IMG/VR virus record: IMGVR_UViG_3300017710_002137
Span: 17,209-81,208 of that record
Direction: 5' to 3' (one strand)
From: a virus
Length of the DNA: 64,000 nt
Shown here: one piece after another, positions 7,383-63,735 of the stretch
How the letters are laid out: every line of letters begins with the position of its first letter
How positions within the stretch are numbered: the stretch's first letter is position 1
Position numbers and translations under genes: made by a program
Notes under the pieces: generated by a model
Seen by the model: only the letters and a program-made list of their open reading frames with translations
The model's database searches: none
What the model was told of the DNA's origin: nothing

Positions 7383-7386
7383 TTAA

Positions 7387-7394: not shown

Positions 7395-7416
7395 TAATAC
7401 AAAGGAGATACTTATT

Positions 7417-7599: not shown

Positions 7600-7609
7600 A
7601 TCTATAATT

Positions 7610-8182: not shown

Positions 8183-8612
8183 CGGAAAATGTATAACAGA
8201 AATATCAGATATGCCAGAAGGTACTATCGGATTCATATACAAAATTACAAATGGACAAACAGGTCAATATTATATAGGAAAAAAATCTCTATATTCACAT
8301 AGAACTTTACCACCACTAAAGGGTTACAAAAGAAAAAGAAAAGTAGTGAAAGAATCTAAGTGGCAAGATTATCGTTCATCTAATGCAAATGTACAACTTT
8401 GGTTTAGTGAAAATGATAAAGCTTTGAATGAAGATAGAAGAAAAGATATTAATGATAGATTAGAATTAAGGATTCTTAGATTCTGTAAAGGTAAAAAATC
8501 CTTAACCTATTATGAACTACAAGAACAATTCTCACATAATGTACTTGCAGACGAGTTATCTCTAAATGATAACTTATTAGGAAAGTTTTTTAGAAAAGAC
8601 TTGGAAAATTAA
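8145..8612 (+). CDS. GIY-YIG nuclease domain protein
   Basis: 155 residues. GFIYKI at 29-34 and YYIG at 42-45 form the GIY-YIG signature, followed by a basic stretch (GYKRKRKVVKESKW) and WQDYRSSN, as in phage GIY-YIG proteins. This family cuts DNA; phage members include homing endonucleases and repair nucleases. AGAGAGG seven bases before ATG 8145 supports this start, giving a 38-base overlap with the sulfotransferase; an in-frame ATG at 8166 is the alternative. It sits inside a block of carbohydrate genes, which is where a mobile endonuclease would help the block spread. Whether it homes is not shown. Confidence 0.72.
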   Translation: MISKFLTMGWTYNGKCITEISDMPEGTIGFIYKITNGQTGQYYIGKKSLYSHRTLPPLKGYKRKRKVVKESKWQDYRSSNANVQLWFSENDKALNEDRRKDINDRLELRILRFCKGKKSLTYYELQEQFSHNVLADELSLNDNLLGKFFRKDLEN

Positions 8613-8631
8613 AATATTTTTTGTATATTTG
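8600..8631 (+). promoter_or_regulatory. Bacteroidota-type promoter (-33 CTTG, -7 TATATTTG)
   Basis: CTTG at 8600-8603, 20-base gap, TATATTTG at 8624-8631. This fits the Bacteroidota primary sigma consensus (TTTG, 19-21 bases, TAnnTTTG). From the second base it matches the 11178-11209 site at 26 of 31 positions. The -7 box ends four bases before the next ATG, so a transcript from it may be leaderless. Confidence 0.7.
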
Positions 8632-8635
8632 ATAT

Positions 8636-9391
8636 ATGGGTAAGAATACTTTAGTTGTAATGGGATGCTCTATGACAGAAGGTCAAGGATGTTGGGGTGA
8701 TTTTAATAAACACATCACAAAAGTTGATGATATCTTAAAACTAAGGAAAAAATATATTAATAGATTTTACGAATTTGGTTGGCCAAATATTGTAGCTAAA
8801 GAACTTGGATTTGATAAAGTAATAAATTTAGGTAAAATAGGAAGTTCAACATCAGGTCAACTAAAGTTTTTTAAAGAACAGAATTTTGGTAATGATAATG
8901 TATATATTATATGGATGTTAACTGAGCCAATTCGGTTTTCTTTTTATAAAAAAGGAAAAATAAAAAACATTCATCCAGCTAAAGGAACACCTATTGGAAA
9001 TTCCTATATAGATTTTGTAGATGATATAACATTAGATTCGTGTCTTGAACAATTATTTTACATTAAGTGTATGAGAGATATTTCTAAATTGAATAACTAT
9101 AATTTATTAATTACACATTGGAACTCTGCATCTAAACACACTCAATCATTAGATGATGTTACTGATAACTATTTACACAAAGTTCCAACAACTATATTAC
9201 CATCTAATAGAAAATTTATTTCAAATGTATGTGGTCATCCTAATGAATTGGGATATGATTGGATGGCAAAAACTATATTAAAAGAAATTAAAAATAATAA
9301 TAAAAATTTTATCATATCTGATAAAAAAGATAAATTAGAATATATTGCACCTGAACACAAATCATATACTATAAATAAAGAATTACTATAA
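8636..9391 (+). CDS. SGNH/GDSL-like hydrolase
   Basis: 251 residues. GCSMTEGQG near residue 10 is a GDSL-type block I with Ser12 as the likely nucleophile. NLGKIGSS resembles block II. GHPNELGYDW (His201) resembles the block V HPN-GY motif. The Asp normally three residues before that His is not there. SGNH enzymes remove or transfer acyl groups on sugars and lipids. It lies directly behind a host-type promoter whose -7 box almost touches the ATG, and no ribosome site is visible. Neighbours are a sulfotransferase and a 2OG oxygenase, which suggests glycan decoration. The substrate is unknown. Confidence 0.65.
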   Translation: MGKNTLVVMGCSMTEGQGCWGDFNKHITKVDDILKLRKKYINRFYEFGWPNIVAKELGFDKVINLGKIGSSTSGQLKFFKEQNFGNDNVYIIWMLTEPIRFSFYKKGKIKNIHPAKGTPIGNSYIDFVDDITLDSCLEQLFYIKCMRDISKLNNYNLLITHWNSASKHTQSLDDVTDNYLHKVPTTILPSNRKFISNVCGHPNELGYDWMAKTILKEIKNNNKNFIISDKKDKLEYIAPEHKSYTINKELL

Positions 9392-9921
9392 TGAGTGTTA
9401 AACAGATAAAAAATATATTAAATTTAGATACGTTATCTATTATCAAAAAGAATAATAGGGATGTTTTTATTAAACAAATTAATAATCTTCAAAAAAGTAA
9501 AGAATTTTGGAATTATAAAATAGTTCAATTTAGTAACGATGTATCAATATATAACTTACCAACAGATAGTTTAGAATTTGATTTAATAAAAAAAGATATA
9601 GATAAATTAAATTTAGAGGTTAATATACAAGGAATAATGTATTACTATTGGCAACCTGGTTCATATATTCCATGGCATAACGATGGTATCTACTCTAATT
9701 CTATTACTATATACTTAAATAATAAATGGGATTATAGTGAAGGTGGTTTATTTTTATACAAAGATGGAAACGATATTAAAACTATAATACCAAGTGATAA
9801 CTTAGGAGTTATTCAAACGGGTGGTGTTGAACACTCTACAACAATAACAAACACAGAATCCCCAATTAGAAAAACTATTCAAATATTTTTAAACGATAAA
9901 AAACATAATACACTATTGTGA
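9391..9921 (+). CDS. 2OG-Fe(II) oxygenase
   Basis: 176 residues with the double-stranded beta-helix signature: His96-x-Asp98 in IPWHNDG, distal His148 in GGVEHSTT and Arg160 (SPIRKT) for 2-oxoglutarate. EGGLFLY between them is typical of the prolyl-hydroxylase-like group. It would hydroxylate a protein or sugar substrate using O2, Fe(II) and 2-oxoglutarate. The start overlaps the end of the SGNH gene and its end overlaps the next gene, so the block is translationally coupled. Phage members of this family are common but their targets are rarely known. Confidence 0.82.
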   Translation: MSVKQIKNILNLDTLSIIKKNNRDVFIKQINNLQKSKEFWNYKIVQFSNDVSIYNLPTDSLEFDLIKKDIDKLNLEVNIQGIMYYYWQPGSYIPWHNDGIYSNSITIYLNNKWDYSEGGLFLYKDGNDIKTIIPSDNLGVIQTGGVEHSTTITNTESPIRKTIQIFLNDKKHNTLL

Positions 9922-10643
9922 AAACATTTATAATCAGAATAAGTAGTAATGAAGATTCAGTTAGGTCTGTAAAACAAACAATCCAAAGTGCAAAAGATGT
10001 AGGATATAAAGAATCAATTGAAATATTTGAAGCAATTAAACCAACTGAGTGGAAAGAGATTCTACCATATGAAAATACGTTTCATAATTACGAAAGACCA
10101 GATAATGTTGGTGCTTGTTTTGCTTCTCATTATTTGTTGTGGAAAGAGTGTATAAAGTTAAATGAACCTATATTAATATTAGAACATGATGCAATATTCA
10201 AAAGTAATATACCTGATATAGATTTCAATATGTGTGTTAACTTTGGTAGACCGAGTTACATTAGACCTCATCATATGATTTATGAAGAACCAAAAGATGG
10301 ATTAAATTGGCCAAATCAAGTTAACTTCTTAGGTCATCATGCATATGCAATTAAACCAAATGCAGCTAAAATATTCTGTGAAGATGTAAAGAAAAGAACT
10401 TTATCTGCAAATGATGTATGGATTGAAAGAGTAACATATCCATGGTTAGAAGAATATAGACCATTCCCCATTTGGGCAGATACTGATTTCTCTACTATAC
10501 AAACGATGTTACCAGATGAAAACCCACTAAAACAAAAATATGATGAAATTACTGATGTTAATAGTCCTTATTACGATTATTTAATGAAACATTTTTCTCA
10601 TGTTCTAAAAGGACCACAATCAGAAAGACATATAGATATATGA
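9918..10643 (+). CDS. Glycosyltransferase family 25-like
   Basis: 241 residues starting with GTG that overlaps the upstream stop as GTGA. The N-terminal RISSNEDSVRSVKQTI, then GACFASHYLLWKECI and EPILILEHDAIF, are the hallmarks of the GT25 LPS glycosyltransferase family; EHDAIF supplies the ExD metal motif. It would transfer a sugar from a nucleotide donor to a glycan, probably in the host cytoplasm. Tightly packed between two 2OG oxygenases. Length is close to the family norm. Confidence 0.78.
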   Translation: MKTFIIRISSNEDSVRSVKQTIQSAKDVGYKESIEIFEAIKPTEWKEILPYENTFHNYERPDNVGACFASHYLLWKECIKLNEPILILEHDAIFKSNIPDIDFNMCVNFGRPSYIRPHHMIYEEPKDGLNWPNQVNFLGHHAYAIKPNAAKIFCEDVKKRTLSANDVWIERVTYPWLEEYRPFPIWADTDFSTIQTMLPDENPLKQKYDEITDVNSPYYDYLMKHFSHVLKGPQSERHIDI

Positions 10644-49100: not shown

Positions 49101-52100
49101 ATGAATGAACTTTCCAAATTTCTCGTAGAGAGTATAATGGAGGATGCGAATCCTATTAAAAAAACAGTAGTTATCTATGTGGGTAGGTTTCAACCTATGC
49201 ACAAAGGACACTATGGTACTTACCAACACCTTGTCAAAAAGTTCGGTAAGGATAATGTTTATGTTGGTACATCTGATAAGGTTGAAAAACCTAAATCACC
49301 TTTTAACTTCAAAGAGAAGGTGAAAATTATGACTACTATGTTTGGAATACCAAAATCCAAAATACATAAAGTCAGAAATCCATACAAACCCACAGAAATT
49401 CTTAAAAAGTTTGATGAGAAAACAACTGCATTCGTAACTGTTGTTGGTGAGAAAGATAAAAGTAGATTAAAGCCAGATAGTGGTAAATACTTTCAATCAT
49501 ACAAAGGAGAACCATCTGTGGGATATAGGGATGGTGGTTATGTTTATGTTGCACCTCAAAGTGGTGGTGGAATAAGTGGTACAGAAACTCGTAATGGTTT
49601 ATCGGTTGGTTCTGATGAACAGAAAAAGGATTTCTTTAAGAAACGAGCGTATGGAAAGTTCAACGCAACTATCTTTAAGATGATTACTGATAAACTCGAT
49701 GAGGGAATTGAAATTTCTAAAGAGATGATTGAGGAGTGGTTAATCAATGAGAGTTCTAAGATGGGAAGTGGTCAAGCAGATGATGGGCCAAACTTCTTTT
49801 TTCCCAATTACGATGTATTTTCCAAGATAAATGTAGATAGAGCAACACGAATTGGTTATGAGGTAGTTAATATGATTTCTAACAAAGAGTTAGAAGATAT
49901 TTACGACCATCCAATTTATCCCAATGGGCCTGTTGGAGCGGTAACACCTTTTCCTGCTGGTATCTTGGGTACAACAACTGCAAATAACCAAGTAGATATC
50001 TATTCAACTGATGCTTATTCTAAGTGGTTTAAGCATGTAACTCGTAGTGCATCAATGGTTGGTTATGAGTTAGTAAAAGGATTGGGAATCAATAAGGATG
50101 TAAAAGATGCATCGTTAGATTCTCAAAAAGGTGATAAGAAAGCACAACAAGAGTATGAAGCATCTTTAAATGAAAATATAGTACTACCAATTAAAGTTGG
50201 GGATACTATTATGACTGGTAGATTTAAAAACAAGAAAACAATTGTTAAATCAATCGGTAAAGATGAACATGGGATGCCTACTATTAATGGTAGAAAAGTA
50301 GTTAACTTCAGAATGGTTAAGGAAGGGTTTATATCAGAACTTGCAGGAACAGCTGTAAAGTGTAAAAAGTGTAATCACTCTTGGGAAATTGAATCTGAAG
50401 ATACCGAAAAGTACTTATGTCATTCATGTGGATGGGATTCTCAGAAACAAGAGTATGATTTTGATGCATTTGATTCTTGGAAAGAGAAAATGGGTTTGAA
50501 TGAAGAACTCGATGAACGAGGGAAAATGAGACCTTCTGATAAATTGAGAAGAAAAGCGGCAATGGCTGGTAAGAGAGCTCAAATAGCAAGAAGAAGAGCA
50601 AGAACGATGAAAAGAAGAAAACCTCTTGCTAAACTTAAGAAGATTGCTTACAAAATGGCATACAGACAAGTTTATGATGAGTTTGCAAAAGATTTATTTC
50701 CTGATATCAAAAAATCTGATTTAAGTATAAAACAATCACAAGTAGTTCACAAAAACGTAGTTAGAAAAAAAGGTAGAATAATGAAAAGAGCTAAGTTTAG
50801 ATTTCTACCAGCTCTTAGACAAAAAGAATTTGATAAGTTTCAAGGTAAAAACGAAAACATGATTGGGTATGCAGGACCTGAAGATATGAAACGTTTTGAT
50901 AAACAAAATAAGGAATATAGAAAAACAGCAGATTCCGATAAAGAGTATCAATACGAACCAATCAAAGAAGTAAATGAATTCTTTTACATGGATTTTAAAA
51001 AGTATGTTTATAAAAACAGAAAACAAATCAACCAAAAGATAAAAGGATTATCAGATAAAGAAAAAAAGAAGTTTTTAGAGTTACTTTGGAAAAAACAAAT
51101 TGGTAAAGGATTTGGTAAAGATGTAGATGGTAGTGAATTACACCAAATGTTAAAAAAAGACAAAGTAGTTAAAGAAGGATTAAAAGAATTAGGAATAAAA
51201 GATTTTAAATCGTTATTTAAGAAAATGCCTTCTGATTTACAAAAGAGAGTTTACAATCTAAAGAACTTTGGACAGAGAGTAGATAAACATCCTGAAGGAA
51301 ATGTTCTTAAACACACAATCACAGTTGTAAATCGTTCAATCAAAGAAGATGATATTGATATTGCAATTGCAGCAATGTTCCATGATATAGGAAAAGATGA
51401 AACTGCTGGTATCCATCCAAAGAAAGGACATATTACTCACTTCGGTCATGAGAAAGTATCTGCGAACTTGGTAAACAAATACAAAAAATGGATTCAATCA
51501 GTTGGTGGAGATGTGGATTCGGTTCATTATATCGTAAAAAATCATATGAGATACAAACAACTATCTGATATGAGACCAAAGAAACAGGCAGATTTAAAAT
51601 CACATCCTTTATTTAGTAAACTAAGTAAATTTTCTAAACACGATAGAGGTGGATTGGATGAATCTACTTTAAAATTAAGAGTTCCATCAGATATTCTAAA
51701 AATTCAAAAAGGATTTAAAAAGAATGGTAAGAAACTTTATGTAGTTGGTGGAGCTGTAAGGGATGCTATACTTGGAAAATCACCAAAGGACTTTGATTTG
51801 GCAACAGATGCAAAACCAGATGAGGTTTTAAAGATTGCCAAGGATTTAGGAATGAAAACTGTTGAGGTTGGTAAATCATTCGGAGTTGTAATGGTTGGTG
51901 GACATGAAATAGCAACATTTAGAAAAGATATTGGTAAAGGTAGGAGACCTTCATCTGTTGATTATACAGATATCGAGGGTGATGTACGAAGAAGAGATTT
52001 AACTATTAATGCTTTATTCTATGATATCGATAGAAAAGAGATAGTTGATTTAGTTGGTGGTATAAAAGATTTACAAAAGAAGAAAATCAGAACAGTTGGT

Positions 52101-54041
52101 AAGGCAGAAGAAAGATTTGATGAGGACCCGTTAAGAAAACTAAGAGCTTTAAGATTCCAAGCAAGGTTGGGTGGTAACTTAGATAAAGAATTACTTGATG
52201 CTTTACAAAAAGACCCATCACTTAAAGGAGTATCATTTGAAAGAGTTAGAGATGAGGTTATAAAATCAATCAAATCAGCTAAAGATACTAAAAAGTATAT
52301 GGAGTTGAATGATAAGATTGGATTCACTTCACTAATATTCCCAAATCTTAAAATATCTAAACCTTACATCAAGGATAATGATTATATCTTGTTCCTTGCA
52401 TCACTATTCAAAAAGAATTCACCTTCGGTATTAGGAAAACAATTAAACAAATTAACTTATTCTAATGACGAAAAAAATAATATTGTATTTTTAGTATCAT
52501 TACAACACTTTAGACCAGAAGAAATTGTAGTATTCAAGAAACTACAAGAAAAAACATCTTTATCAGATGACCAAATCCTTAAATTTGGTAAGTTGATTGG
52601 GAAGGATATGAAAAAGTTCGTAAACTTTAACTTATCTATTGGTGGAAAGGATGTTCCATCTGATATCAAAGGACCTGAAATAGGATTGTGGATTAAAAAT
52701 AAAGAAAAGGAAAAATTTATGAATGAAATAGAACAACTAATAAGTGATATTGATGATAAGTTGGTTGAAATGTTTTTACCAAACACTAAAACACCACAAC
52801 AACTAATAAAAGAAAACATAAACGAATCTAAATTACTCCAAGAAGGTGGTGCGTATGGACATATGTCTCACCCATTTGATACTGATATCAATTTAACCTT
52901 TGGACAACTTAAAGATATCGTAAATAGAGCACTTGAAGGTACACTTGAGTACACCAGAGAGAAAACCGATGGTCAAGCTCTTGCTATTTCATGGAGAGAT
53001 GGGAGATTAGTAGCAGCAAGAAACAAAGGACACTTAAAAAACAAAGGTGAGAACGCTTTAGATATCAAAGGTGTATCAGATAAGTTCCAAGGTAGAGGAG
53101 GTTTATCAGATGCATACAATTATGCTATGAAAGACCTTTCAAATGCAATAAAATCCCTTTCAGATAAACAAAGAGATAAGGTATTCAAACAAGGAGCGTG
53201 TTTTATGAACCTTGAAGTGATATATCCAACATCAGTTAATGTGATTCCTTATGGCCAAGCGTTACTTGTATTTCATGGAACTATGGAATATAACGATGAG
53301 GGTGTTGCTATAGGTGAAAATGGTGAAGCAGCAAGAATATTAGCTGGTATGATTAAACAAGTGAACAAAGATGTACAAGATAACTACACTATTCAAGGCC
53401 CACCTGTTGTAAAATTACCAAAATCACAAGATTTATCTAAAAAACGTAGTAAATATTCATCACAGATATCTAAATTACAGAAAGAATTTAGTTTAAAGGA
53501 TACTGATGGTGTTGCAAACTATCACCAAGCATGGTGGGAACAATGGGTTGATAAAAATTCACCATCAACACTCGATAACAAAACCAAAATGGGGTTAGTT
53601 AAGAGATGGGCATTCATGGATAAGAAGTTTAGATTAGATAAAAAGAATATTACTGATGAAAAAACATTAGAGTGGGCTAAGAAAACAGATAAAGATGACC
53701 AAAAAAAGATTTCTAAACAGAATCTAATGAAGTTTGAACAGATTTTCTTAGGATTAGGTGCAGAAGTATTAGAATTTACTTCATCTGCTTTAACTGTTAA
53801 TCCTGATTCCGCAGTTCGTGATATGAAAAAACGAATTGATAAAACAATCAAAGATGTTAAGAAATCAGGTGACCCAAAGAAGATAGAAAAACTTAAATTA
53901 GAACTTGGTAGATTAAATTCTATTGGTGGTTCTAATAAAATTGTACCAAATGAAGGTATTGTATTCTTATATAATGGTAATACTTTCAAACTCACAGGAA
54001 CATTTGCATCAGTAAATCAAATACTCGGTATTTTCTTCTAA
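49101..54041 (+). CDS. RNA-repair-type multidomain polyprotein (NMNAT-like, HD, CCA, ligase)
   Basis: 1646 residues. 18-214: nucleotidyltransferase with HKGH (34-37) and ISGTETR (158-164), NMN-adenylyltransferase-like. 218-355: unknown. 359-413: small beta module. 421-443: zinc ribbon, two CxxC pairs. 473-625: very basic segment. 627-852: HD domain (His738, His761-Asp762). 880-1240: class II CCA-adding/poly(A)-polymerase-type domain (GGAVRD at 883, DFD 897-899, RRDLTINAL). 1249-1646: RNA-ligase-like domain with KTDG (Lys1288), Glu1372, EGIVF (1618) and KLT (1630). (L/I)-x-E tripeptides fall at most borders: 8-10, 215-217, 356-358, 411-413, 466-468, 852-854, 1240-1242, 1246-1248. Such sites fit T4 prohead-protease cleavage, so packaging and cutting into separate enzymes is inferred. 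Whether the enzymes act on tRNA is unproven. Confidence 0.85.
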   Translation: MNELSKFLVESIMEDANPIKKTVVIYVGRFQPMHKGHYGTYQHLVKKFGKDNVYVGTSDKVEKPKSPFNFKEKVKIMTTMFGIPKSKIHKVRNPYKPTEILKKFDEKTTAFVTVVGEKDKSRLKPDSGKYFQSYKGEPSVGYRDGGYVYVAPQSGGGISGTETRNGLSVGSDEQKKDFFKKRAYGKFNATIFKMITDKLDEGIEISKEMIEEWLINESSKMGSGQADDGPNFFFPNYDVFSKINVDRATRIGYEVVNMISNKELEDIYDHPIYPNGPVGAVTPFPAGILGTTTANNQVDIYSTDAYSKWFKHVTRSASMVGYELVKGLGINKDVKDASLDSQKGDKKAQQEYEASLNENIVLPIKVGDTIMTGRFKNKKTIVKSIGKDEHGMPTINGRKVVNFRMVKEGFISELAGTAVKCKKCNHSWEIESEDTEKYLCHSCGWDSQKQEYDFDAFDSWKEKMGLNEELDERGKMRPSDKLRRKAAMAGKRAQIARRRARTMKRRKPLAKLKKIAYKMAYRQVYDEFAKDLFPDIKKSDLSIKQSQVVHKNVVRKKGRIMKRAKFRFLPALRQKEFDKFQGKNENMIGYAGPEDMKRFDKQNKEYRKTADSDKEYQYEPIKEVNEFFYMDFKKYVYKNRKQINQKIKGLSDKEKKKFLELLWKKQIGKGFGKDVDGSELHQMLKKDKVVKEGLKELGIKDFKSLFKKMPSDLQKRVYNLKNFGQRVDKHPEGNVLKHTITVVNRSIKEDDIDIAIAAMFHDIGKDETAGIHPKKGHITHFGHEKVSANLVNKYKKWIQSVGGDVDSVHYIVKNHMRYKQLSDMRPKKQADLKSHPLFSKLSKFSKHDRGGLDESTLKLRVPSDILKIQKGFKKNGKKLYVVGGAVRDAILGKSPKDFDLATDAKPDEVLKIAKDLGMKTVEVGKSFGVVMVGGHEIATFRKDIGKGRRPSSVDYTDIEGDVRRRDLTINALFYDIDRKEIVDLVGGIKDLQKKKIRTVGKAEERFDEDPLRKLRALRFQARLGGNLDKELLDALQKDPSLKGVSFERVRDEVIKSIKSAKDTKKYMELNDKIGFTSLIFPNLKISKPYIKDNDYILFLASLFKKNSPSVLGKQLNKLTYSNDEKNNIVFLVSLQHFRPEEIVVFKKLQEKTSLSDDQILKFGKLIGKDMKKFVNFNLSIGGKDVPSDIKGPEIGLWIKNKEKEKFMNEIEQLISDIDDKLVEMFLPNTKTPQQLIKENINESKLLQEGGAYGHMSHPFDTDINLTFGQLKDIVNRALEGTLEYTREKTDGQALAISWRDGRLVAARNKGHLKNKGENALDIKGVSDKFQGRGGLSDAYNYAMKDLSNAIKSLSDKQRDKVFKQGACFMNLEVIYPTSVNVIPYGQALLVFHGTMEYNDEGVAIGENGEAARILAGMIKQVNKDVQDNYTIQGPPVVKLPKSQDLSKKRSKYSSQISKLQKEFSLKDTDGVANYHQAWWEQWVDKNSPSTLDNKTKMGLVKRWAFMDKKFRLDKKNITDEKTLEWAKKTDKDDQKKISKQNLMKFEQIFLGLGAEVLEFTSSALTVNPDSAVRDMKKRIDKTIKDVKKSGDPKKIEKLKLELGRLNSIGGSNKIVPNEGIVFLYNGNTFKLTGTFASVNQILGIFF

Positions 54042-55432: not shown

Positions 55433-57025
55433 ATGGCTAAACAGAGTTTAAAGGAAATAATTAAACTTGAGTATCAAAAATGTGCACAAGACCCAATCTA
55501 CTTTATGAAAAAGTATTGTATGATTCAGCATCCTGTGCGAGGTAAGATTCCTTTTCACTTATATCAGTTTCAAGAAAGAACTTTAGACCAATTCGCAGAA
55601 CATCGTTATAACATTATCCTTAAATCTCGACAAACAGGTATCTCAACCTTAACTGCGGGATTTTCACTTTGGAAAATGTTATTCAATCAAGATTTTAATG
55701 TATTAGTAATTGCAACTAAACAAGAAGTTGCCAAGAACCTTGTAACGAAGGTTCGTGTAATGAATCAGTACTTACCATCATGGTTAAAACAAACAACAGT
55801 AGAAGATAACAAACTATCCTTAAGATACTCGAATGGTTCTCAGATAAAAGCAACTTCAGCCGCTGGTGATGCTGGTCGTTCTGAAGCATTATCCTTATTG
55901 GTATTTGATGAAGCTGCATTTATTGATAAGATTGAAGATATTTGGATATCAGCACAATCTACCTTATCAACGGGTGGTAATGCAATTATTCTTTCTACAC
56001 CAAATGGTGTCGGAAATTTCTTTCATAAAACTTGGGTAGGTGCTGAAGAAGAAGAAAACGGATTCAATCCAATCAGATTACATTGGAGTGTTCATCCTGA
56101 AAGAAATCAAGATTGGAGAGATGAACAAGAAGTACTATTAGGAGTAAAGGGAGCCGCACAAGAATGTGATTGTGATTTCGTTTCTTCTGGTGATACTGTG
56201 ATTGACCCTCAACTTCTTATGTTCTATAAAGAATCCTTTTGTCAAGAACCAATAGAGAAAACAGGATTCGATGGAAACCTTTGGAAGTGGGAATATCCCA
56301 ACTATAATAAAACATATATGGTAGTTGCGGATGTTGCTCGTGGAGATTCAACTGATTATTCAGCATGTCATGTTATAGATGTTGAAGAAGCTTCACAAGT
56401 TGCAGAATACAGAGGTAAATTGGATACTAAAGATTTTGGAAACTTTTTAGTTTCATTGGCAACTGATTACAATCAAGCACTATTAGTAATTGAAAACGCA
56501 AATATTGGTTGGGCAGTTATACAACAAGTAATTGATAGAGGATATGGAAATCTTTTCTACATGAGTAAAGATTTAAAGTATGTAGATGTTGAACATCAAC
56601 TATCAAATAGATACCGTGCCGAGGAACGAGGGATGGTTGCAGGATTTTCGACAACTTCTAAAACTCGACCTTTGATTATATCAAAGTTGGATGATTATTT
56701 TAGAGATAAATCTGTAACAGTTCGTTCAACACGATTAATTGATGAATTGTTTACATTTATATGGAGAGGAAATAGAGCCGAAGCCATGAGTGGATACAAT
56801 GATGATTTAACAATGGCATTCGCAATCGGATTGTGGGTTAGAGATACTGCACTTAGATTAAGACAAGAAGGAATTGATTTAACAAAACAAGCATTAGGTG
56901 GTATTGGAGCACATTCATTGGATGTAGTTGGTATGGGATTTGGTGGTAACTCTTCAATGGAAGATAATCCTTGGAAACAAAGGGTTGGTGATAGAGATGA
57001 GGATTTAACTTGGTTAATTAAATAA
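55433..57025 (+). CDS. Terminase large subunit (T4 gp17-like)
   Basis: 530 residues. ATPase: ILKSRQTGISTLTAG is the Walker-A-like loop, LLVFDEAAFID the Walker B with catalytic Glu, ILSTPNG the coupling motif. Nuclease: VADVARGDSTDYSACHVID carries the RNase H-fold acidic cluster, with later Asp residues around DDLTMAFAIG. Packages DNA into the prohead through the portal, cutting headful concatemers. Length and order match T4 gp17. It precedes portal with one small gene between. Confidence 0.93.
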   Translation: MAKQSLKEIIKLEYQKCAQDPIYFMKKYCMIQHPVRGKIPFHLYQFQERTLDQFAEHRYNIILKSRQTGISTLTAGFSLWKMLFNQDFNVLVIATKQEVAKNLVTKVRVMNQYLPSWLKQTTVEDNKLSLRYSNGSQIKATSAAGDAGRSEALSLLVFDEAAFIDKIEDIWISAQSTLSTGGNAIILSTPNGVGNFFHKTWVGAEEEENGFNPIRLHWSVHPERNQDWRDEQEVLLGVKGAAQECDCDFVSSGDTVIDPQLLMFYKESFCQEPIEKTGFDGNLWKWEYPNYNKTYMVVADVARGDSTDYSACHVIDVEEASQVAEYRGKLDTKDFGNFLVSLATDYNQALLVIENANIGWAVIQQVIDRGYGNLFYMSKDLKYVDVEHQLSNRYRAEERGMVAGFSTTSKTRPLIISKLDDYFRDKSVTVRSTRLIDELFTFIWRGNRAEAMSGYNDDLTMAFAIGLWVRDTALRLRQEGIDLTKQALGGIGAHSLDVVGMGFGGNSSMEDNPWKQRVGDRDEDLTWLIK

Positions 57026-57057: not shown

Positions 57058-57444
57058 ATGATTTCAATGAAAAAATTAATTAGTGAAAACGAAAACGAAT
57101 CTTATTGTAATGAGTATTTCGTAGAAAATTACAATGATATTAAAGAATTCTGTGAATTCATGGAATCGTATAAATCTGATATTAACGAAGCAGAATACCA
57201 AGGAAGAAAAGTAAAACTTGGTAAACCAATGCAAGGTGATGTTAAAAAATTCAAAGTATATGTTAAAAATCCTCAAGGTAATGTAGTAAAAGTAAACTTT
57301 GGTCACAAAGGTAAGGGAAATGAAAAGACGATGAAAATTCGTAAGAACAATCCAGATGCAAGAAAAGCATTTAGAGCAAGACACAATTGTGATTCACCAG
57401 GTCCAAGACATAAAGCTAGATACTGGTCATGTAGAAAGTGGTAA
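57058..57444 (+). CDS. Small head/core protein with KARYWSCR end
   Basis: 128 residues. The N-terminus MISMKKLISENENE has Ile-Ser-Glu at 8-10, as in a capsid-targeting peptide. DINEAEYQ has Ile-Asn-Glu at 42-44, a likely prohead-protease site that would leave an 84-residue basic product. The C-terminal NPDARKAFRARHNCDSPGP and KARYWSCRKW is a conserved pattern I have seen in many T4-like marine phages. AAGGAG nine bases upstream sets the start. A capsid or core protein located between terminase and portal. Confidence 0.72.
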   Translation: MISMKKLISENENESYCNEYFVENYNDIKEFCEFMESYKSDINEAEYQGRKVKLGKPMQGDVKKFKVYVKNPQGNVVKVNFGHKGKGNEKTMKIRKNNPDARKAFRARHNCDSPGPRHKARYWSCRKW

Positions 57445-57483: not shown

Positions 57484-59211
57484 ATGGCAGATACTTCATT
57501 TTTTGGTAGATTAACGAAACTCTTCAGAGCTCAAGCAGTTGTTACTGTCGATAAAGATGGTAAGAGAAAAGTTGTTGATACCGATGAAAGACAACAAACA
57601 AATTTATCTTCTCTAAGAGATAGATATACGAAACTACAAAAAAGTTTCTTTGAACAAGCAGGTGGTGCTCAATCAATGGCATACCAACAAGTTCGTAGAG
57701 AAGTTTTTAGAGATTACGATGCGATGGATAACGACCCAATATTAGCATCAGCTCTCGATATATACGCAGATGAATCAACACTAAAGAACGAATTTGGTGA
57801 TACTCTTATGATTCACTCAGATAATCAAAAAGTACAAGATTTATTAAACAACTTATTCTATGATATTCTTAATGTTGAATTCAACTTATGGCCATGGGTA
57901 AGAAATATGTGTAAGTATGGGGATTTCTTCTTAGGTTTAGAAATTGCTGAAGGTAAAGGTATTGTTAACGTAACACCTCATTCAGTTTACAACACAGAAA
58001 GATTAGAAAGAACAGACCCTTCAAATCCAAATTCAGTAAAATTTAAAATTACTGAGGACCCGAATGGAAAAGAACAATATGAAAACTTTGAAGTTGCTCA
58101 TTTTAGATTATTAGCAGATACTAACTGGTTACCATATGGTAAATCTATGATTGAGAATGGTAGAAGATTGTGGAAACAATTATCTTTAATGGAAGATGCT
58201 ATGTTAATCCATAGAATTATGAGAGCACCTGAAAAAAGAGTTTTCAAAATTGATATCGGTAATATCCCACCAACAGAAGTAGATAACTATATGCAAAGAA
58301 TTATGAACAAAATGAAGAAAGTTCCTTTTGTTGATAGAAATACTGGTGATTACAACTTAAAGTACAATATGCAAAACCTAACAGAAGATTTCTATCTTCC
58401 TGTTCGTGGTGGTGATAGTGGAACATCTATTGATAATCTTGCAGGATTAGAGTATGCAACCATCGATGATATTGATTACCTAAAAAATAAATTATTCGCA
58501 GCATTAAAGATTCCAAGAGCTTATTTAGGATATGAGGAAAATGTAAATGGTAAAGCAACTCTTGCCGCTGAAGATGTAAGATTTGCAAGAACAATAGAAA
58601 GAATCCAAAGAACAGTAATTTCAGAATTATCTAAGATTGCAATTGTTCACTTATACTCACAAGGAATTACTGATTCAGAAATGACTAACTTTGAATTAGG
58701 ATTAGTAAATCCATCTACAATTTACGAACAAGAAAAAGTAAACTTGTGGAGTGAAAAAATTAGATTGGCTCAAGATATTCAAGGTCTTAATATGTTATCC
58801 AAAGATTGGGTATATGAAAACATCTTTAAACTAAGTGGTGGTGAACAAGATGAACAGAGAGTTAGGATGTTGGATGACTTAAAAGATAGATTTAGATTCC
58901 GTTCTATTGAAGATGAAGGTTCAGACCCTGCACAAGAAGATGAAGAACCAGATGATATAGAAGAACAAATTGAAAATATCAAAAAAGAAATTAAAGATAA
59001 AGGTGGTAGACCAAGAGAGGGTGGAACTTATAAAAAAGATAAACATCCACTTGGTAGAGACCCACTCGGTGATGATGAAAGAACGAAAAAACGTTCAAGA
59101 ACTTCTGAAGATAAGGCAATTAAATATATTAATGGTATAGCGGCTAAAAGGAAGTATTTACACGAAATGAAAGGTATGTTAGATGAAAATAATATACTTG
59201 ACCAAGAATAA
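57484..59211 (+). CDS. Portal protein (T4 gp20-like)
   Basis: 575 residues. YDAMDNDPILASALDIYADEST, LWPWVRNMCKYGDFFLGLE, VTPHSVYNTERLERTDP, RIMRAPEKRVFKIDIGNIPP and YLPVRGGDSGTSIDNLAGL are hallmarks of gp20-type portals. The C-terminus is acidic then basic and probably flexible. The dodecameric portal is the vertex through which DNA enters and leaves and from which the T4 head assembles. Located after terminase, as in T4. Confidence 0.92.
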   Translation: MADTSFFGRLTKLFRAQAVVTVDKDGKRKVVDTDERQQTNLSSLRDRYTKLQKSFFEQAGGAQSMAYQQVRREVFRDYDAMDNDPILASALDIYADESTLKNEFGDTLMIHSDNQKVQDLLNNLFYDILNVEFNLWPWVRNMCKYGDFFLGLEIAEGKGIVNVTPHSVYNTERLERTDPSNPNSVKFKITEDPNGKEQYENFEVAHFRLLADTNWLPYGKSMIENGRRLWKQLSLMEDAMLIHRIMRAPEKRVFKIDIGNIPPTEVDNYMQRIMNKMKKVPFVDRNTGDYNLKYNMQNLTEDFYLPVRGGDSGTSIDNLAGLEYATIDDIDYLKNKLFAALKIPRAYLGYEENVNGKATLAAEDVRFARTIERIQRTVISELSKIAIVHLYSQGITDSEMTNFELGLVNPSTIYEQEKVNLWSEKIRLAQDIQGLNMLSKDWVYENIFKLSGGEQDEQRVRMLDDLKDRFRFRSIEDEGSDPAQEDEEPDDIEEQIENIKKEIKDKGGRPREGGTYKKDKHPLGRDPLGDDERTKKRSRTSEDKAIKYINGIAAKRKYLHEMKGMLDENNILDQE

Positions 59212-59283: not shown

Positions 59284-60156
59284 ATGAGAAAAATAAAACA
59301 TTCAAAATTTAAGAATACTGGATTCCTTTTTGAGCTTTTAACTCGACAAATTACCGTTGAAATACTTAATGGTAGCGAGGAAAAGTCAAAAGGAATCATC
59401 AAAGAATTCTATGGAAGAGGAACTGAGCTATCAAAAGAACTCAGATTATTCAACCTACTTATAAACGAAAAATACAATACAGATTCAAAGGCTGAAAAGT
59501 TTATTGATGCTATTTTAGAAGCACATACTAAAATAAATTATACAAAACTTCAACGAGAAAAGTACAATCTTGTTAAATCCATCAAGGAGAACTTCGAAAT
59601 TAATAATTTCTTATCTTCCCCGGTAACAAACTACAAAATTTTAGCTTCAATTCATAAACTTTTTGAAGGTAAAAAGAATGATATTCTTGATGTTAAGGAC
59701 GTATTCGATTCTAAAATCACTCTTGTAGAACACATCTCATCTAATTCCCAAAATTCAAAAGGTGTTACGCAAGATAAATTAGTAGAGGAATATAGAAAAC
59801 AAGAGAAGGACCTAAGGTTGTTGACATATAAAATACTTGTTGAAACTTTTAACAAAAAATATACTACTCTAAATGAATCACAGAAGGGTTTATTAAGAGA
59901 ATATATTAATAACGTAACTAATACATCAAAGTTTAACGAGTATTATGATTCTCAATTAGTCGAAACTATTACTACTTTACATGGTATGTACAAGAGTATG
60001 AAGGATAAGATTACAAAAATCAAGTTGAGAGAAACAATTAATGTTCTTAAAAAACAAAAAATTGGTAAAAAGATTACCGATGAACAAGTTTCAGCTTTGA
60101 TGATGTCTTATGAATTGATTAAGGAGATAAAAAATGTCAATGAACGAAAATCTTAA
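59284..60156 (+). CDS. Conserved head-block protein, unknown
   Basis: 290 residues, highly helical and basic. KHSKFKNTGFLFELLTRQITVEILNG at the start and the KITDEQVSALMMSYELIKE end have the look of a conserved phage core protein, but no known domain is recognised. It contains the tripeptide LNESQ near residue 196. It lies between portal and the core genes, where T4 has gp67 and gp68, and may be a prohead scaffold/core component. It overlaps the next gene by 23 bases. Confidence 0.55.
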   Translation: MRKIKHSKFKNTGFLFELLTRQITVEILNGSEEKSKGIIKEFYGRGTELSKELRLFNLLINEKYNTDSKAEKFIDAILEAHTKINYTKLQREKYNLVKSIKENFEINNFLSSPVTNYKILASIHKLFEGKKNDILDVKDVFDSKITLVEHISSNSQNSKGVTQDKLVEEYRKQEKDLRLLTYKILVETFNKKYTTLNESQKGLLREYINNVTNTSKFNEYYDSQLVETITTLHGMYKSMKDKITKIKLRETINVLKKQKIGKKITDEQVSALMMSYELIKEIKNVNERKS

Positions 60157-61426
60157 AGAGTATTTAGATGAATTAATTCAAGAAATTGAAAAAGAACTTG
60201 AAGAGGCTACTACAACAGGTAACGTAGCTGGTTACCAAACCCCTAAAGCATTTTCTGATAAAGGTAAATCTGATAAAAAAAGAAAGAAAAAAATCGCAAC
60301 TGCACTTGGTTATAGTGTAGTGGGTGATGATGTTGATAACATCTCTGAGGCAATCAAAGGTAGAAACAACAAAACAGGTGAATCCTTTGGAATGGTTATC
60401 GGTTCTGATAAACAAGGTAACAATGGATACGAACTTACCGTAAGAAAAACTTACAATTCAAGAATAAGTGCATATGGATTTATTTTTGATAAAGATTCCA
60501 ACCTAACTGATATTCGTGATTATGGATATTCACTCGATGGTAAGTTTCCTGATATGAAAGGTCATGCAAGTTCAACATCAGTAAGACCTAACAAAAGAGA
60601 AACTATTACTCAAATAGCTAAAATTACTTCCCCAGCATTTGCAAAAAAGATTTATCAGCACGTTCAAAAGAATAACAAAATGGATGAATCAGTAAACGAA
60701 GCTTCTAAATTAGCTATGGGTATTGCTGGATTCACTGGTACTCGTGGTGTTGCTGTTGATGATTTTATCAATACACATAACATCGATGCAAAAAAACTTT
60801 TTAACTTTGTAAAAAAAGGAAATTTAAAAGATAGAATGGCATTCGTATCAGCAATTGCTGGTAGACCTAATAACAAAATGTTTAAAATGATTACCAAACA
60901 ATTTGGTGAATCAGTAAACGAAGCAATGAAACCATCACAAGTTCGTTCAGCAATCTCAAAGGTTAAAAAACAACTAATGAGAAAGTGGAAACAAAAAGGT
61001 GGATATGAAAACTTCGGTCAAAAAGAATTAGATAAAATGAAATCTAAGTTTGATTACAATCCTTATGGTTCACCAGATGAAAGACAAATTTCTAAGATGT
61101 TAGATGGGTTTGATAATTGGGCAATGAACTATGATGGTAATATGAGGGAAGATATATCTGAAGCCAAAGTAAAAAGACCCGTTAATCGTTGGTTAGAATT
61201 AAAAAACGATGAAACAATGCATCCTCATAAGAAGATGGCAATGGGTTTAAAAGAATTAAAGTATCAGTTAAGAGAAACTGAAAAGTTCTTTAATTGGTAT
61301 AATAAAATAAAAACTATGAATGAGTTAGATTCCAATCAGTATTGGAAAAGAACAAATAAACATATTTATAGTATAAAAGAGAAACTAATTAATATCGCTA
61401 AAACGATACAGGAGATTGAAAAATGA
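60134..61426 (+). CDS. Prohead core-type protein with repeated ESVNEA motif
   Basis: 430 residues with AAGGAG upstream of the ATG. The N-terminus is helical and acidic (LKEYLDELIQEIEKELEEA) with Leu-Glu-Glu before a Thr/Gly linker. MDESVNEASKL and GESVNEAMKP repeat the same hexapeptide ESVNEA about 80 residues apart, and DISEAKV adds Ile-Ser-Glu. The pieces between are basic domains. This looks like a multi-part internal protein that prohead protease would cut. Same motif class as in its neighbours. Confidence 0.62.
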   Translation: MSMNENLKEYLDELIQEIEKELEEATTTGNVAGYQTPKAFSDKGKSDKKRKKKIATALGYSVVGDDVDNISEAIKGRNNKTGESFGMVIGSDKQGNNGYELTVRKTYNSRISAYGFIFDKDSNLTDIRDYGYSLDGKFPDMKGHASSTSVRPNKRETITQIAKITSPAFAKKIYQHVQKNNKMDESVNEASKLAMGIAGFTGTRGVAVDDFINTHNIDAKKLFNFVKKGNLKDRMAFVSAIAGRPNNKMFKMITKQFGESVNEAMKPSQVRSAISKVKKQLMRKWKQKGGYENFGQKELDKMKSKFDYNPYGSPDERQISKMLDGFDNWAMNYDGNMREDISEAKVKRPVNRWLELKNDETMHPHKKMAMGLKELKYQLRETEKFFNWYNKIKTMNELDSNQYWKRTNKHIYSIKEKLINIAKTIQEIEK

Positions 61427-61896
61427 AAATAACAAGAGAACACTTAAAAAATATTGTAAGAGAAACCTTACAAGAAGAATCTGAATATCAAGAATTTTTC
61501 AAGAAGGCTTTAGAAAAGGCTGGTAAGTCAATTCCTGCAATGTCTGATGAAGAAAAAAAGAAATTCTTTAACAACATAGAAAAAACTTGGAGTGGTAGAG
61601 GAAAAAAGAATGAAAGATTTGGTAGAGGAGATGAAACTGAATTAGATGAGTTAACAAAGGCTCAAGAAAAATTACCACCAGCACTTAAAAAGGCAATAGA
61701 GAAAAAAGAAGGTAAAAAAGAATCAGTTGATGAATCAATCAACGAAGGACCTTCTACTGAAGAAAAAAGAATTGCAATGTTGGCTGTTAGAAAACAAGCT
61801 AAATACAGAAATGTAAGTTTGGAACAGGCAATACAAGACCAAATCAATGCTCTTGAAGAATTAAAGAGAGATGCAAAGAGAGGTAAATTAAAATAA
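61423..61896 (+). CDS. Small core/internal head protein
   Basis: 157 residues. MKITREHLKNIVRETLQEE at the N-terminus is an amphipathic helix ending in Leu-Gln-Glu; DESINEGPSTEEKR contains Ile-Asn-Glu before a short C-terminal helix. It is rich in Lys and Glu, as core and internal proteins often are. It overlaps the preceding gene by ATGA. Probably cut by prohead protease near both ends; inferred. Confidence 0.6.
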   Translation: MKITREHLKNIVRETLQEESEYQEFFKKALEKAGKSIPAMSDEEKKKFFNNIEKTWSGRGKKNERFGRGDETELDELTKAQEKLPPALKKAIEKKEGKKESVDESINEGPSTEEKRIAMLAVRKQAKYRNVSLEQAIQDQINALEELKRDAKRGKLK

Positions 61897-61897
61897 A

Positions 61898-62074
61898 ATG
61901 ACTAAGAGAGAGTTGTATGATATAATCAATGAGGAAATTGTTAACTTTAAAAAAGGAAAGATTAACGAAGAACTCAATGAATCTGATAAGGATTTAATAA
62001 GAAAAATCATCAGACAGGAAGTATCTGCAATCTTTTTCGATTTATTTAAACGAAGAAAAACTTGGGGAGCATAA
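61898..62074 (+). CDS. Very small core-type protein, 58 residues
   Basis: ATG at 61898, TAA at 62072-62074 overlapping the protease ATG as TAATG. MTKRELYDIINEEIVNF and KINEELNESDKD contain three (I/L)-Asn-Glu tripeptides in 28 residues, the highest density in the window; the C-terminus is a basic helix (FDLFKRRKTWGA). Position directly before the prohead protease matches T4 genes 67 and 68, small core proteins destroyed by gp21. No search was possible. Confidence 0.6.
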   Translation: MTKRELYDIINEEIVNFKKGKINEELNESDKDLIRKIIRQEVSAIFFDLFKRRKTWGA

Positions 62075-62667
62075 TGGGACAATTATTAATAGAAACAAAC
62101 CTATTCGAAGGTAAAGTAAATGAAGATGATAGTGGAAGAACTATTGTTAAGGGTATTTTACAAAGAGCAGGTGCTGAAAATCAAAATGGAAGGATATATC
62201 CTAAAGAAATTTTGATGAGAGAAGCTAAAAAATACGAAACACTTATTAAAGAAAGAAGAGCACTTGGTGAATTAGACCATCCAGATTCTTCTGTAATCAA
62301 TCTAAAGAACGTATCTCATAACGTAAGAGAGATACATTGGGATAATGATGATTTAGTAGGAACAGTTGAGATTCTACCAACTCCAAGTGGTAATATCTTA
62401 AAAGAACTACTTAAAGCAGGTATCCTTTTAGGTATATCATCAAGAGGTATGGGTTCAGTAGAACCTCTATCAGGTGGTAAAGTACAAGTAGGTGAAGATT
62501 TTGAATTGATTGGTTGGGATTTTGTTTCTAATCCATCAACTCATGGAGCATTTATGACTCCAATGAACGAATCTGTTAATAAAGAACTTATTAAACAAGG
62601 TGAAGTTTGTAACGAGTGGTGTAAATCACAAGATTTGATGAGAGAAATTATAACAGAAATAGGTTAA
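62074..62667 (+). CDS. Prohead core protease (T4 gp21-like, peptidase S80/U9)
   Basis: 197 residues from the ATG at 62074 with GGGGAG upstream; a TTG at 62062 lies inside the previous gene. NGRIYPKEIL, LGELDHPD (catalytic His region), HNVREIHWDNDDLVGTVEIL, GISSRGMGSV (catalytic Ser region) and WDFVSNPSTHGAFM are diagnostic. In T4, gp21 cleaves core and capsid-targeted proteins after (L/I)-x-E and then itself. Its own start MGQLLIETNLFEG has Leu-Ile-Glu and Leu-Phe-Glu, suitable for self-processing. Confidence 0.92.
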   Translation: MGQLLIETNLFEGKVNEDDSGRTIVKGILQRAGAENQNGRIYPKEILMREAKKYETLIKERRALGELDHPDSSVINLKNVSHNVREIHWDNDDLVGTVEILPTPSGNILKELLKAGILLGISSRGMGSVEPLSGGKVQVGEDFELIGWDFVSNPSTHGAFMTPMNESVNKELIKQGEVCNEWCKSQDLMREIITEIG

Positions 62668-62671: not shown

Positions 62672-62860
62672 ATGGGATTTAATGTACAGGACTTTATGTC
62701 CAAAAATAAATTTAAGTTAGGTAAAGTTACCAGAGAAGTAGGAGAAACTCCATTCAAAGGTGGGCATAACGATATAAGAAAAACAAACTATGAAGTTAAG
62801 TTAACTGAAGATGGTAAACTTGATTTATATACACATAAAACGGAGACAAAAGAATTATGA
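62672..62860 (+). CDS. Small protein, unknown
   Basis: 62 residues: MGFNVQDFMSKNKF, then a compact charged region (KVTREVGETPFKGGHNDIRK) and a C-terminal beta-like stretch (NYEVKLTEDGKLDLYTHK). Too short for domain recognition. It starts five bases after the protease stop and overlaps the next gene by ATGA, so it is part of the head operon. Possibly a minor core protein. Confidence 0.5.
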   Translation: MGFNVQDFMSKNKFKLGKVTREVGETPFKGGHNDIRKTNYEVKLTEDGKLDLYTHKTETKEL

Positions 62861-63735
62861 TTAAATTGACTGAACTTTTAAAAGAAGAAGAAACCTTCAC
62901 AGCAATCAATAAAGATAGTGGTGAAGTTTCTGTATTTAAATCCAAAGATGCAAGAGATTCAGCTGTAAAGGCAGGTACTCACACTAAAGCTAAAGATTCG
63001 GAAAATGGTGATGATAAAAAAGATACTCCTAAAGTGAACATCTTTGATAAACCTAAAAAGGATGAACCTAAGAAAGATGAACCTGTAAGGGATGACCAAA
63101 CCGATGCACAGATAGAAGATGTTCAAAATAATATTGATGATATGCCCGGTGATGAAATACAAGATTATGCAGAATCAGATATATTCCCATATCTTAAAGG
63201 AAAAGATTTGGAACTTGCAAAAATGTATGTAGATGATATTGATGCGGCAGGGGATGATTTTGATAGAAGTGCTGATTTAAGAAAAGATTTAAAAGATTTA
63301 TTTGATAAGAAAATGAGTTTAGAGAACACCTCTACAAGATTAAAAGATTTATTACCAGAAGGATTAATCAACGAAGGAACTCGTTCTCAAGTTGGTATCA
63401 TTGATAGAAGTGGTAAGATTGCATCAGCGTATGTTCACTACGATGGATATCCATCTAATATGAAACCAGGTCTTAAAAAACACATGAAGAACGAAAAAGA
63501 TGTTCTTACTTTAATTAAAAAGGGTGGAGCAAGTGGAATCTTTGATGATAAAGAAATTGAATATTATAATGAAAAATCACAACCATTAAAAGGAACTGAA
63601 AAAGATATACAAGGATATATTAAAAATGCTGGAAACAAAGGTGGTGCAGAATTTGTATATTTATATAATATGAAAGATAGAAAATGGTATTTCGCCGATG
63701 TTTATAAAGATAAAGATTTAAAAAAATTATTTTAA
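62857..63735 (+). CDS. Capsid-targeted internal protein, two-part
   Basis: 292 residues. MIKLTELLKEEETF is a short amphipathic start with Leu-Lys-Glu. A long acidic/Lys-rich middle (residues 45-165; PKKDEPKKDEP) is likely disordered. Then LLPEGLINEGTRSQVGII gives Leu-Pro-Glu and Ile-Asn-Glu, followed by a conserved C-terminal domain (GKIASAYVHYDGYP, LIKKGGASGIFDD, EFVYLYNMKDRKWYFAD). By analogy with T4 internal proteins, protease cutting would release the C-terminal domain inside the head. The domain function is unknown. Confidence 0.62.
   Translation: MIKLTELLKEEETFTAINKDSGEVSVFKSKDARDSAVKAGTHTKAKDSENGDDKKDTPKVNIFDKPKKDEPKKDEPVRDDQTDAQIEDVQNNIDDMPGDEIQDYAESDIFPYLKGKDLELAKMYVDDIDAAGDDFDRSADLRKDLKDLFDKKMSLENTSTRLKDLLPEGLINEGTRSQVGIIDRSGKIASAYVHYDGYPSNMKPGLKKHMKNEKDVLTLIKKGGASGIFDDKEIEYYNEKSQPLKGTEKDIQGYIKNAGNKGGAEFVYLYNMKDRKWYFADVYKDKDLKKLF

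Follow-up and report, generated by a model that had tools for sequence, protein, structure and literature searches.

A modular polyprotein of a T4-like marine phage, predicted to be packaged in the capsid and cut into separate enzymes by the prohead protease

The 64,000-nucleotide stretch of viral DNA analysed here (positions 17,209 to 81,208 of the IMG/VR record IMGVR_UViG_3300017710_002137; henceforth the window) contains at 49101-54041 on the plus strand a single uninterrupted open reading frame (ORF) with an ATG start, which encodes a protein of 1646 amino acids and is present intact, at 100% identity, in each of two contigs of IMG/VR (loci L001/L081 and L002/L082). In homologs of this protein the module borders coincide with the tripeptide [LI]xE (Leu or Ile, any residue, Glu), after which the prohead protease gp21 of phage T4 cleaves according to the available portions of PMC9026906. 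We propose, with a probability of roughly 0.68, that the protein is a capsid-packaged polyprotein of enzyme cassettes, which the prohead protease cuts into separate enzymes.

The polyprotein would be cargo of a marine phage that is T4-like (gp23-type). A peptide of approximately 14 residues at the N-terminus of the chain would serve as a capsid-targeting tag and carry the whole chain into the prohead core. A gp21-family protease of the phage would then cleave the linkers behind the Glu of [LI]xE, so that the tag is lost and the modules become free within the capsid; injected along with the DNA, they could work as individual enzymes as soon as infection begins. The load would consist of an enzyme resembling nicotinamide mononucleotide adenylyltransferase (NMNAT) for supply of nicotinamide adenine dinucleotide (NAD) and an RNA ligase, with tRNA-end enzymes of the CCA-adding and HD types and others as optional cassettes, and its likely purpose would be counter-defence, part of which would be to repair RNA, probably tRNA, that the host has cut or trimmed. 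We hold the cut-and-packaged architecture a little more firmly than the explanation as a whole, and give about even odds to tRNA or RNA repair being a main purpose.

Module borders coincide with [LI]xE

A search of viral contigs and two phage records gave 44 distinct full-length homologs with both the first and the last module of the window protein, of which 40 were kept after removal of four near-identical ones; ORFs cut by contig ends were left out, as were ORFs lacking the first or last module (e.g. the L119-L121 polyproteins, where the ligase is a separate ORF). The 40 homologs span 639-2106 amino acids and display 16 module orders among the nine modules of the window protein. The first enzyme and the ligase are present in all 40 by selection, the HD domain and the segment 624-693 in 18 each and the CCA module in 14 (remaining counts in Table 1); the CCA module precedes the basic module and the HD domain in two homologs and follows the HD domain in others.

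Defining a breakpoint as the end of a local alignment between homologs, with at least three partners required, we obtained 289 breakpoints in 38 homologs, the other two having none. Of these breakpoints, 98 are no more than three residues away from the Glu of an [LI]xE, against 18.3 expected from circular shifts (z 18.0), and 42 fall exactly on that Glu. Swapping the third residue of the motif for any of the other 19 brings z to 2.3 or less, and the variants [LI]E, [LI]xxE and [VMF]xE score -0.4, 4.3 and 11.0, respectively. When similar junctions are removed, 28 of 134 breakpoints are found near [LI]xE versus 8.1 expected, a count reached in none of 400 random trials, and [VMF]xE is enriched as well (16 versus 6.3, P 0.003), while this deduplicated set holds no enrichment of [LI]E, [LI]xxE, [LI]xD, [LI]xK or [LI]xS. 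The 503 other ORFs of the same loci, serving as control, yielded 97 breakpoints in 76 ORFs, three of them near [LI]xE versus 7.7 expected. A first pass under a looser rule had given 171 of 576 versus 92.1 expected (z 10.1), with z scores of 3.3 for [LI]xQ and 3.2 for [VMF]xE.

Several figures nonetheless weigh against cutting at these borders, and in part they would suit one large multifunctional enzyme that stays intact in the cytoplasm, the [LI]xE at its borders merely reflecting Glu-rich linkers. Plain Glu itself scores z 11.1 at breakpoints, i.e. the borders are Glu-rich linkers, and in the deduplicated set there is mild enrichment of [KRDENQ]xE (31 of 134 versus 20.3, P 0.01, within three residues; 45 versus 29.9 within five) and of [LI]xQ (8 versus 3.7, P 0.035). 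Furthermore, 191 of 289 breakpoints are more than three residues from any [LI]xE, and the deduplicated effect is 3.5-fold in homologs that are related and not independent. The overall density of [LI]xE is also ordinary, being 1.15 per 100 amino acids in the polyprotein versus 1.39 in 51 other ORFs of the window (52 of its 63 ORFs were used, with 11 overlapping minus-strand ORFs left out), and fused repair enzymes exist in general. However, the scores of the variant motifs indicate that the linkers are somewhat Glu-rich and that [LI]xE exceeds this, since [LI]xE and [VMF]xE are strongly enriched whereas [LI]E, [LI]xD, [LI]xK and [LI]xS are not. The absence of an excess in the control ORFs, the many module orders and the preservation of the ligase start by a site or an internal start, described below, likewise agree poorly with an intact enzyme, which we consider improbable.

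The eight (L/I)-x-E tripeptides on which the initial annotation of this DNA had built its proposal are all where it placed them, and 11 more bring the total in the window protein to 19. Shuffles of its composition give 13.7 on average, placing the observed number at about the 95th percentile, a slight excess; the count is thus near chance while the placement is beyond it, and whole-chain enrichment, which we considered as a line of evidence, was rejected. The sites at 696, 749, 1150 and 1406 fall within modules as drawn, which does not favour cutting in linkers, and the deficit of sites inside modules (4 versus 10.4 expected) carries little weight as the borders were drawn with the sites in view. 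In a predicted model of residues 1-872, ten of the 13 sites lie in stretches with a predicted local distance difference test score (pLDDT) below 50, as do 244 of the 872 residues, and this location lends soft support to cutting in linkers; with a predicted template modelling score (pTM) of 0.30 the model is, on the unfavourable side, too uncertain for a fold search.

The ligase border

Immediately before the ligase domain, [LI]xE is found in 110 of 120 distinct sequences drawn from 228 matching ORFs (in one of the 110 the middle residue is unread). The 87 different upstream 12-mers have Glu at -1 in 79 cases and Leu or Ile at -3 in 86, and -4 is mostly Leu or Ile, while -2 and the positions from -5 onward are variable. 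The nine bases of the border are coded in 56 different ways among the 87, with nine Leu/Ile codons and one Ser codon at -3, and the constraint therefore lies on the amino acids; a DNA-level recombination motif, which was also considered, is made unlikely by the same diversity. Where the ligase is a short ORF of its own (L119-L121, L156/L163, L162, L166 and L167), an N-terminal stretch likewise ends with [LI]xE before the same GG.

Seven of the ten exceptions (L134, L159, L160, L190, L217, L221 and L247) have a Met before the domain, and their DNA carries AAGGAG (GGGAG in one) followed by nine bases and an ATG. By one pattern a Shine-Dalgarno-like sequence is present at six of these seven borders versus 14 of 107 Glu-type borders, and of 1239 internal in-frame ATGs in the 40 homologs, seven are preceded by a stricter pattern, AGGAG/GGAGG. 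At the seven Met-type borders the lost site seems to have been replaced by an internal start, and the fact that either a site or an internal start is kept at the ligase start points to the free domain as the likely functional product. It should also be mentioned that three borders (L113, L165 and L155) have neither [LI]xE nor Met, which speaks against such a rule.

N-terminal tag, protease and capsid context

The window protein begins with M-N-E-L-S-K-F-L-V-E, i.e. with LVE at residues 8-10. Among the homologs the first [LI]xE ends most often at position 10 (29 of 40), and an [LI]xE ending at residues 8-16 is found in all 40, which share ancestry, versus 84 of the 503 control ORFs. A similar tag is kept in relatives in which the cargo behind it differs (HxGH enzyme, P-loop domain, small beta module and others), a small-beta-like module sitting directly behind the tag in L180, L182 and L186. 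For the T4 internal protein IPIII, PMC9026906 reports in the text available that ten residues are enough for packaging, with a role of positions 4 and 7 in targeting and of 8 and 10 in cutting, and the N-terminus of the polyprotein resembles such a capsid-targeting peptide.

The putative cutter, a gp21-family prohead protease, is indeed encoded about 8 kb away as the initial annotation had stated, and has homologs in 10 of 10 related records searched; its own N-terminus carries LIE and LFE. The term self-partitioning used in that annotation is imprecise, the proposed cutter being a separate protein, while its idea of packaging and partition at [LI]xE gains support from the breakpoint statistics, the conserved ligase border, the N-terminal tag, the co-encoded protease and the sites in capsid proteins. 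As regards the latter, [LIV]xE-Ala occurs near residue 60 in six of seven related major capsid proteins, and T4 gp23 loses 65 residues according to the same partial source (PMC9026906); the correspondence with the gp23 site is by position only, and other [LI]xE near the N-terminus of those capsid proteins lessen its value.

The polyprotein gene lies upstream of the genes for the large terminase, the portal and the gp21-family protease. The major capsid gene is not in the window, since the virus record has 81,208 bases and ends where the window ends. In the Microcystis phage Mel-JY01, the sole named cultured phage in which the ligase was detected, the homolog is followed downstream by a terminase, a putative prohead protease, a T4-like capsid protein and a tail tube; no proteome of this phage came up among the papers listed in a literature search. 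The boundary statistics add much to the original observation, and cutting and packaging seem well supported as far as sequence goes, with RNA repair being plausible for some of the enzymes carried.

Predicted identities of the enzymes

The chain of domains read by the initial annotation (HxGH, zinc ribbon, basic segment, HD, CCA-type and KxDG) is borne out by Pfam, motifs, conservation and fold. Above the Pfam cut-offs are CTP_transf_like at 25-116, HD at 745-822 and PolyA_pol at 879-997, and the zinc ribbon has CxxC at 421 and 440 with a HypA match that is weak and below cut-off (E 0.007).

The C-terminal domain has EKxDG, RN, E, EG and KxTG invariant in 31 aligned sequences, of which we take KxDG, E, EG and K to be ligase motifs I, III, IV and V. 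Its AlphaFold2 model has a pLDDT of 87.3 and a pTM of 0.83, the first six residues being loose. Foldseek against the PDB places T4 Rnl1 first with a modest match (E 0.004, probability 0.92), and VIA-align finds a Naegleria RNA ligase at Z 8.3 and T4 Rnl1 at Z 8.2. The first 25 VIA-align rows (Z 8.3-6.8) comprise 23 titled RNA or tRNA ligases and two titled 'Pmar-Lig', which is presumably a DNA ligase; other DNA ligases come lower, and rows within one Z unit are tied, so that many matches leave the type (Rnl1, Rnl2 or Trl1) equally placed within about 1 Z. In BFVD, viral RNA ligases appear from E 4e-4. The scores themselves weigh on the other side, as no PDB match of the model in Foldseek falls under E 0.001 and the best VIA-align row (Z 8.3) covers 184 residues at 4.2 Å and is close to Z 7-8, which is described for this tool as common without a true match. 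The region has no Pfam or PHROG match passing the cut-off or E 0.001 and no convincing PDB sequence match (best rows eS6, E 0.007, and DarA, 0.04-0.24), and naming it by sequence was rejected. The modest scores and the motifs together suggest an RNA-ligase-like fold with predicted ligation activity. A weak BFVD row (E 1e-4) points to a 591-residue cytidyltransferase-like protein of the cultured phage S-PM2; among the neighbouring genes read, the 586-residue product does not match the ligase profile (E 0.064), while the 391-residue cytidyltransferase was read by eye only.

The CCA module has a PolyA_pol head with GG and DxD motifs and matches the CCA-adding enzyme 6ibp (E 2e-33), and the sole PDB sequence matches of the HD module are the 'Poly A polymerase' entries 3wfo-3wfs (E 7e-4), of which it matches part; both look like tRNA-end enzymes. 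The first enzyme has the motifs HKGH (34-37) and ISGTETR (158-164), and its HxGH domain is also present in the Mel-JY01 homolog. Its best PDB match is 1f9a (MJ0541), presumably an NMNAT, followed by named NMNATs (E 0.001-0.008), with phosphopantetheine adenylyltransferases behind (E 0.03-0.05). Phages have been proposed to use NMN adenylyltransferases to rebuild NAD after depletion by the host (PMC9503650, in the part available).

With an NMNAT-like first enzyme beside the ligase, CCA and HD modules, the chain appears to carry a mixed set of counter-defence enzymes, one of them for sealing nucleic acid and probably RNA, rather than a kit for RNA repair alone. The RNA-repair kit of the initial annotation therefore stands in part, namely for the ligase with its fold and motifs and for the CCA and HD modules, and falls short in that the HxGH domain matches enzymes of NAD and that the CCA and HD modules are each missing from more than half of the homologs. 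The enzymes could alternatively serve metabolism or DNA work (NAD supply, sealing of DNA nicks), as the NMNAT-like enzyme, the presence of DNA ligases lower in the fold list and the optional nature of the CCA and HD modules may suggest. This seems rather unlikely, since RNA and tRNA ligases dominate the top VIA-align rows, although with the ties noted, and since the CCA cassette matches CCA-adding enzymes and the HD cassette 'Poly A polymerase' entries.

Relatives and other tagged ORFs

Foreign cassettes were tallied with Pfam and PHROG in 30 proteins (28 of the 40 homologs, L088 and L119), where DUF5661 was found in three and GNAT, ROS/MUCR, IF2_N and ParB_N in one each. A sister group joins the ligase, a P-loop domain of AAA_33/Zeta type and the HxGH enzyme in other orders; in L186 the P-loop domain passes the Pfam cut-off with both models and in L221 with Zeta, and in L164, where it has no PDB sequence match, it falls just short. 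Judged from sequence it may be a kinase in some relatives, and the Pfam scan detected no kinase in the window protein, which counts against a complete repair set there. L164 itself (2833-10221) encodes a relative of 2463 amino acids in which tag, small beta module, P-loop domain, CCA, HD, HxGH, a hydrophobic stretch and ligase form one chain.

Among 50,697 phage records, three contain the ligase at E 0.01, including a single named isolate, and two scans of viral contigs gave 206 and 304 ligase-matching stretches in possibly overlapping sets. Ligase homologs also occur in contigs binned to genomes of Pelagibacteraceae, Euryarchaeota, Rhodospirillales, Neomarinimicrobiota and Firmicutes (L158-L162); these are perhaps phage contigs or proviruses, and the hosts are putative.

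The ORF directly behind the protease gene is 57% identical over its residues 4-57 to the L087 polyprotein (E 5e-11). Apart from the polyproteins, ten ORFs whose starts are complete contain a module shared with them, and in six of the eight listed as distinct, the window's own 62857-63735 included, that module lies directly behind an N-terminal [LI]xE. At the same place relatives have ORFs of 604 (L248, 4391), 379 (L249, 1144), 933 (L250, minus strand, 1700) and 325 amino acids (L251, 4225); by eye, the first two share the first and last parts of the window ORF, and the L250 and L251 ORFs, matched by place only, have tag-like stretches in mid-chain. This suggests that chains grow by fusion of tagged genes whose tags persist as internal sites.

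Alternatively, the tag alone might be removed from a packaged chain, leaving the internal sites as unused fossils of the tags of fused genes. The mid-chain tag-like stretches are in line with this, and sites may be masked when the contents of the capsid are folded or crowded. However, a site is kept directly before the ligase amid variable surroundings, and an internal start apparently takes its place where it is lost, and we give this alternative only a small probability.

Features of the window and its neighbourhood

Three head-region ORFs (57058-57444, 60134-61426 and 61423-61896) have [LI]xE in their first 20 residues and are possible packaged proteins. Further upstream a long run of ORFs (26169-48371), of which those at 26169, 28347 and 30202 start with a VPYR[DN]R-type motif recalling glycosyltransferases when their N-termini are read, is perhaps a surface-glycan island beside the head genes.

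Table 1. Coordinates of the polyprotein ORF, its modules and candidate sites, and of neighbouring genes in the window
Feature	Coordinates	Strand	Basis or remark
Modular polyprotein ORF	49101..54041	+	1646 amino acids
N-terminal tag, residues 1-14, [LI]xE at 8-10 and 12-14, capsid-targeting-like	49101..49142	+	Homolog comparison; rules of the T4 capsid-targeting sequence
HxGH / ISGTxxR nucleotidyltransferase, NMNAT-like, residues 18-200	49152..49700	+	Pfam CTP_transf_like; PDB matches
Candidate cleavage site, residues 215-217	49743..49751	+	Sequence; inside stretch with pLDDT<50
Conserved 'DDGP' module without assigned function, residues 218-355	49752..50165	+	38/40 homologs
Candidate cleavage site, residues 356-358	50166..50174	+	Sequence; stretch with pLDDT<50
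Small beta module, residues 359-410	50175..50330	+	37/40 homologs
Candidate cleavage site, residues 411-413	50331..50339	+	Breakpoint at 409 here, 412-414 in homologs
Zinc ribbon, residues 414-465	50340..50495	+	Two CxxC; weak HypA; 30/40 homologs
Candidate cleavage sites, residues 466-468 and 470-472	50496..50516	+	Breakpoint at 467
Very basic helical module, residues 473-620	50517..50960	+	46 K+R versus 17 D+E; 34/40 homologs
Candidate cleavage site, residues 621-623	50961..50969	+	Breakpoint at 623
HD domain, residues 697-851	51189..51653	+	Pfam HD; PDB sequence matches
Candidate cleavage site, residues 852-854	51654..51662	+	Breakpoint at 856
Class II CCA-adding-type head and neck, residues 855-1235	51663..52805	+	PolyA_pol E 3e-30; 6ibp E 2e-33
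Candidate cleavage-site cluster directly before ligase, residues 1236-1238, 1240-1242 and 1246-1248	52806..52844	+	Breakpoint with 15 partners at 1238
RNA-ligase-type nucleotidyltransferase (predicted), residues 1249-1646	52845..54038	+	Invariant motifs; AlphaFold2 model; fold matches
Large terminase	55433..57025	+	phrog_2 E 1.5e-46
Portal protein	57484..59211	+	phrog_213 E 1e-63
gp21-family prohead protease, proposed cutter in trans	62062..62667, ATG 62074	+	phrog_207 E 5e-49
Second tagged modular ORF, 292 amino acids, right after the protease	62857..63735	+	First module is a cassette inside the L087 polyprotein

Relation to known systems

The closest idea in the literature appears to be that of polyvalent proteins (Iyer et al. 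2017, PMC5512222), which in the sections available likewise join many unlike domains in one chain, are predicted to be packaged and injected, and grow by domain accretion from solo modules; a gene position near portal and terminase, as in the window and in Mel-JY01, is also shared. The window protein might alternatively be a polyvalent protein that is packaged and injected and either processed by an embedded metallopeptidase or left uncut. Its many domains and its place upstream of terminase and portal would fit, as would the ParB- and GNAT-type domains of a few relatives and the metallopeptidase motif HExxH in six of the 40 homologs. HExxH is however absent from the window protein and the other 34 homologs, and the borders carry the motif of the prohead protease. 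It should be added that the same sections give an embedded metallopeptidase for about 36% of polyvalent proteins, making it common rather than defining. They ascribe processing to such metallopeptidases or to in-chain assemblin-like domains, whereas here the borders match a separate prohead protease, and they do not report a fused RNA ligase, which is present here. We regard this alternative as quite improbable.

The closest mechanism would be that of the T4 internal proteins (IPI-IPIII and Alt) with gp21, which similarly combines an N-terminal peptide of about ten residues, L/I-x-E and a gp21-family protease; Alt is moreover an enzyme and is cut at both ends, as far as PMC9026906 was available. 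T4 cargo, as described there, consists of single proteins with their own tags, whereas here nine modules (more in some relatives) share a chain with sites between them, and the modules also occur in other tagged ORFs. By analogy, the window protein would combine both schemes, the many domains of polyvalent proteins and the tag and protease that serve one cargo each in T4. Inner-body and head proteins of phiKZ and SPN3US are also comparable, having a large packaged load, a gp21 relative that cuts after Glu and long propeptides cut several times, but in the available text of PMC9026906 and PMC10052503 these cuts remove propeptides and site-separated enzyme cassettes are not described. Phage RNA repair sets (the T4-type RNA ligase; jumbo-phage sets, PMC7824862) share the ATP-dependent RNA ligase fold and tRNA-end nucleotidyltransferases, and are, in the part available, mostly separate enzymes, unlike the one tagged chain found here, which in the window lacks a kinase. 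No description of an enzyme polyprotein bordered by sites of a capsid protease was found in the literature searched, outside of which lie preprints and most subscription papers, and this does not imply that none has been published.

Implications

We think it fairly likely, with somewhat less assurance than for the packaged and cut polyprotein itself, that the arrangement is a true polyprotein strategy of tailed phages, in which a site travels with each module, one tag packages and one protease frees any recombined enzyme, internal starts being an alternative route to free ligase. It would then be a general and evolvable injection platform of uncultured marine T4-like phages. If this is true, tailed phages resemble RNA viruses in making a polyprotein that a viral protease cuts, but use the trick to fill the capsid with enzymes, and following the sites would provide a sequence rule for finding injected effectors in uncultured phages. 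Candidate modules for counter-defence could furthermore be listed in this way, and the arrangement would offer a design by which one capsid delivers several proteins.

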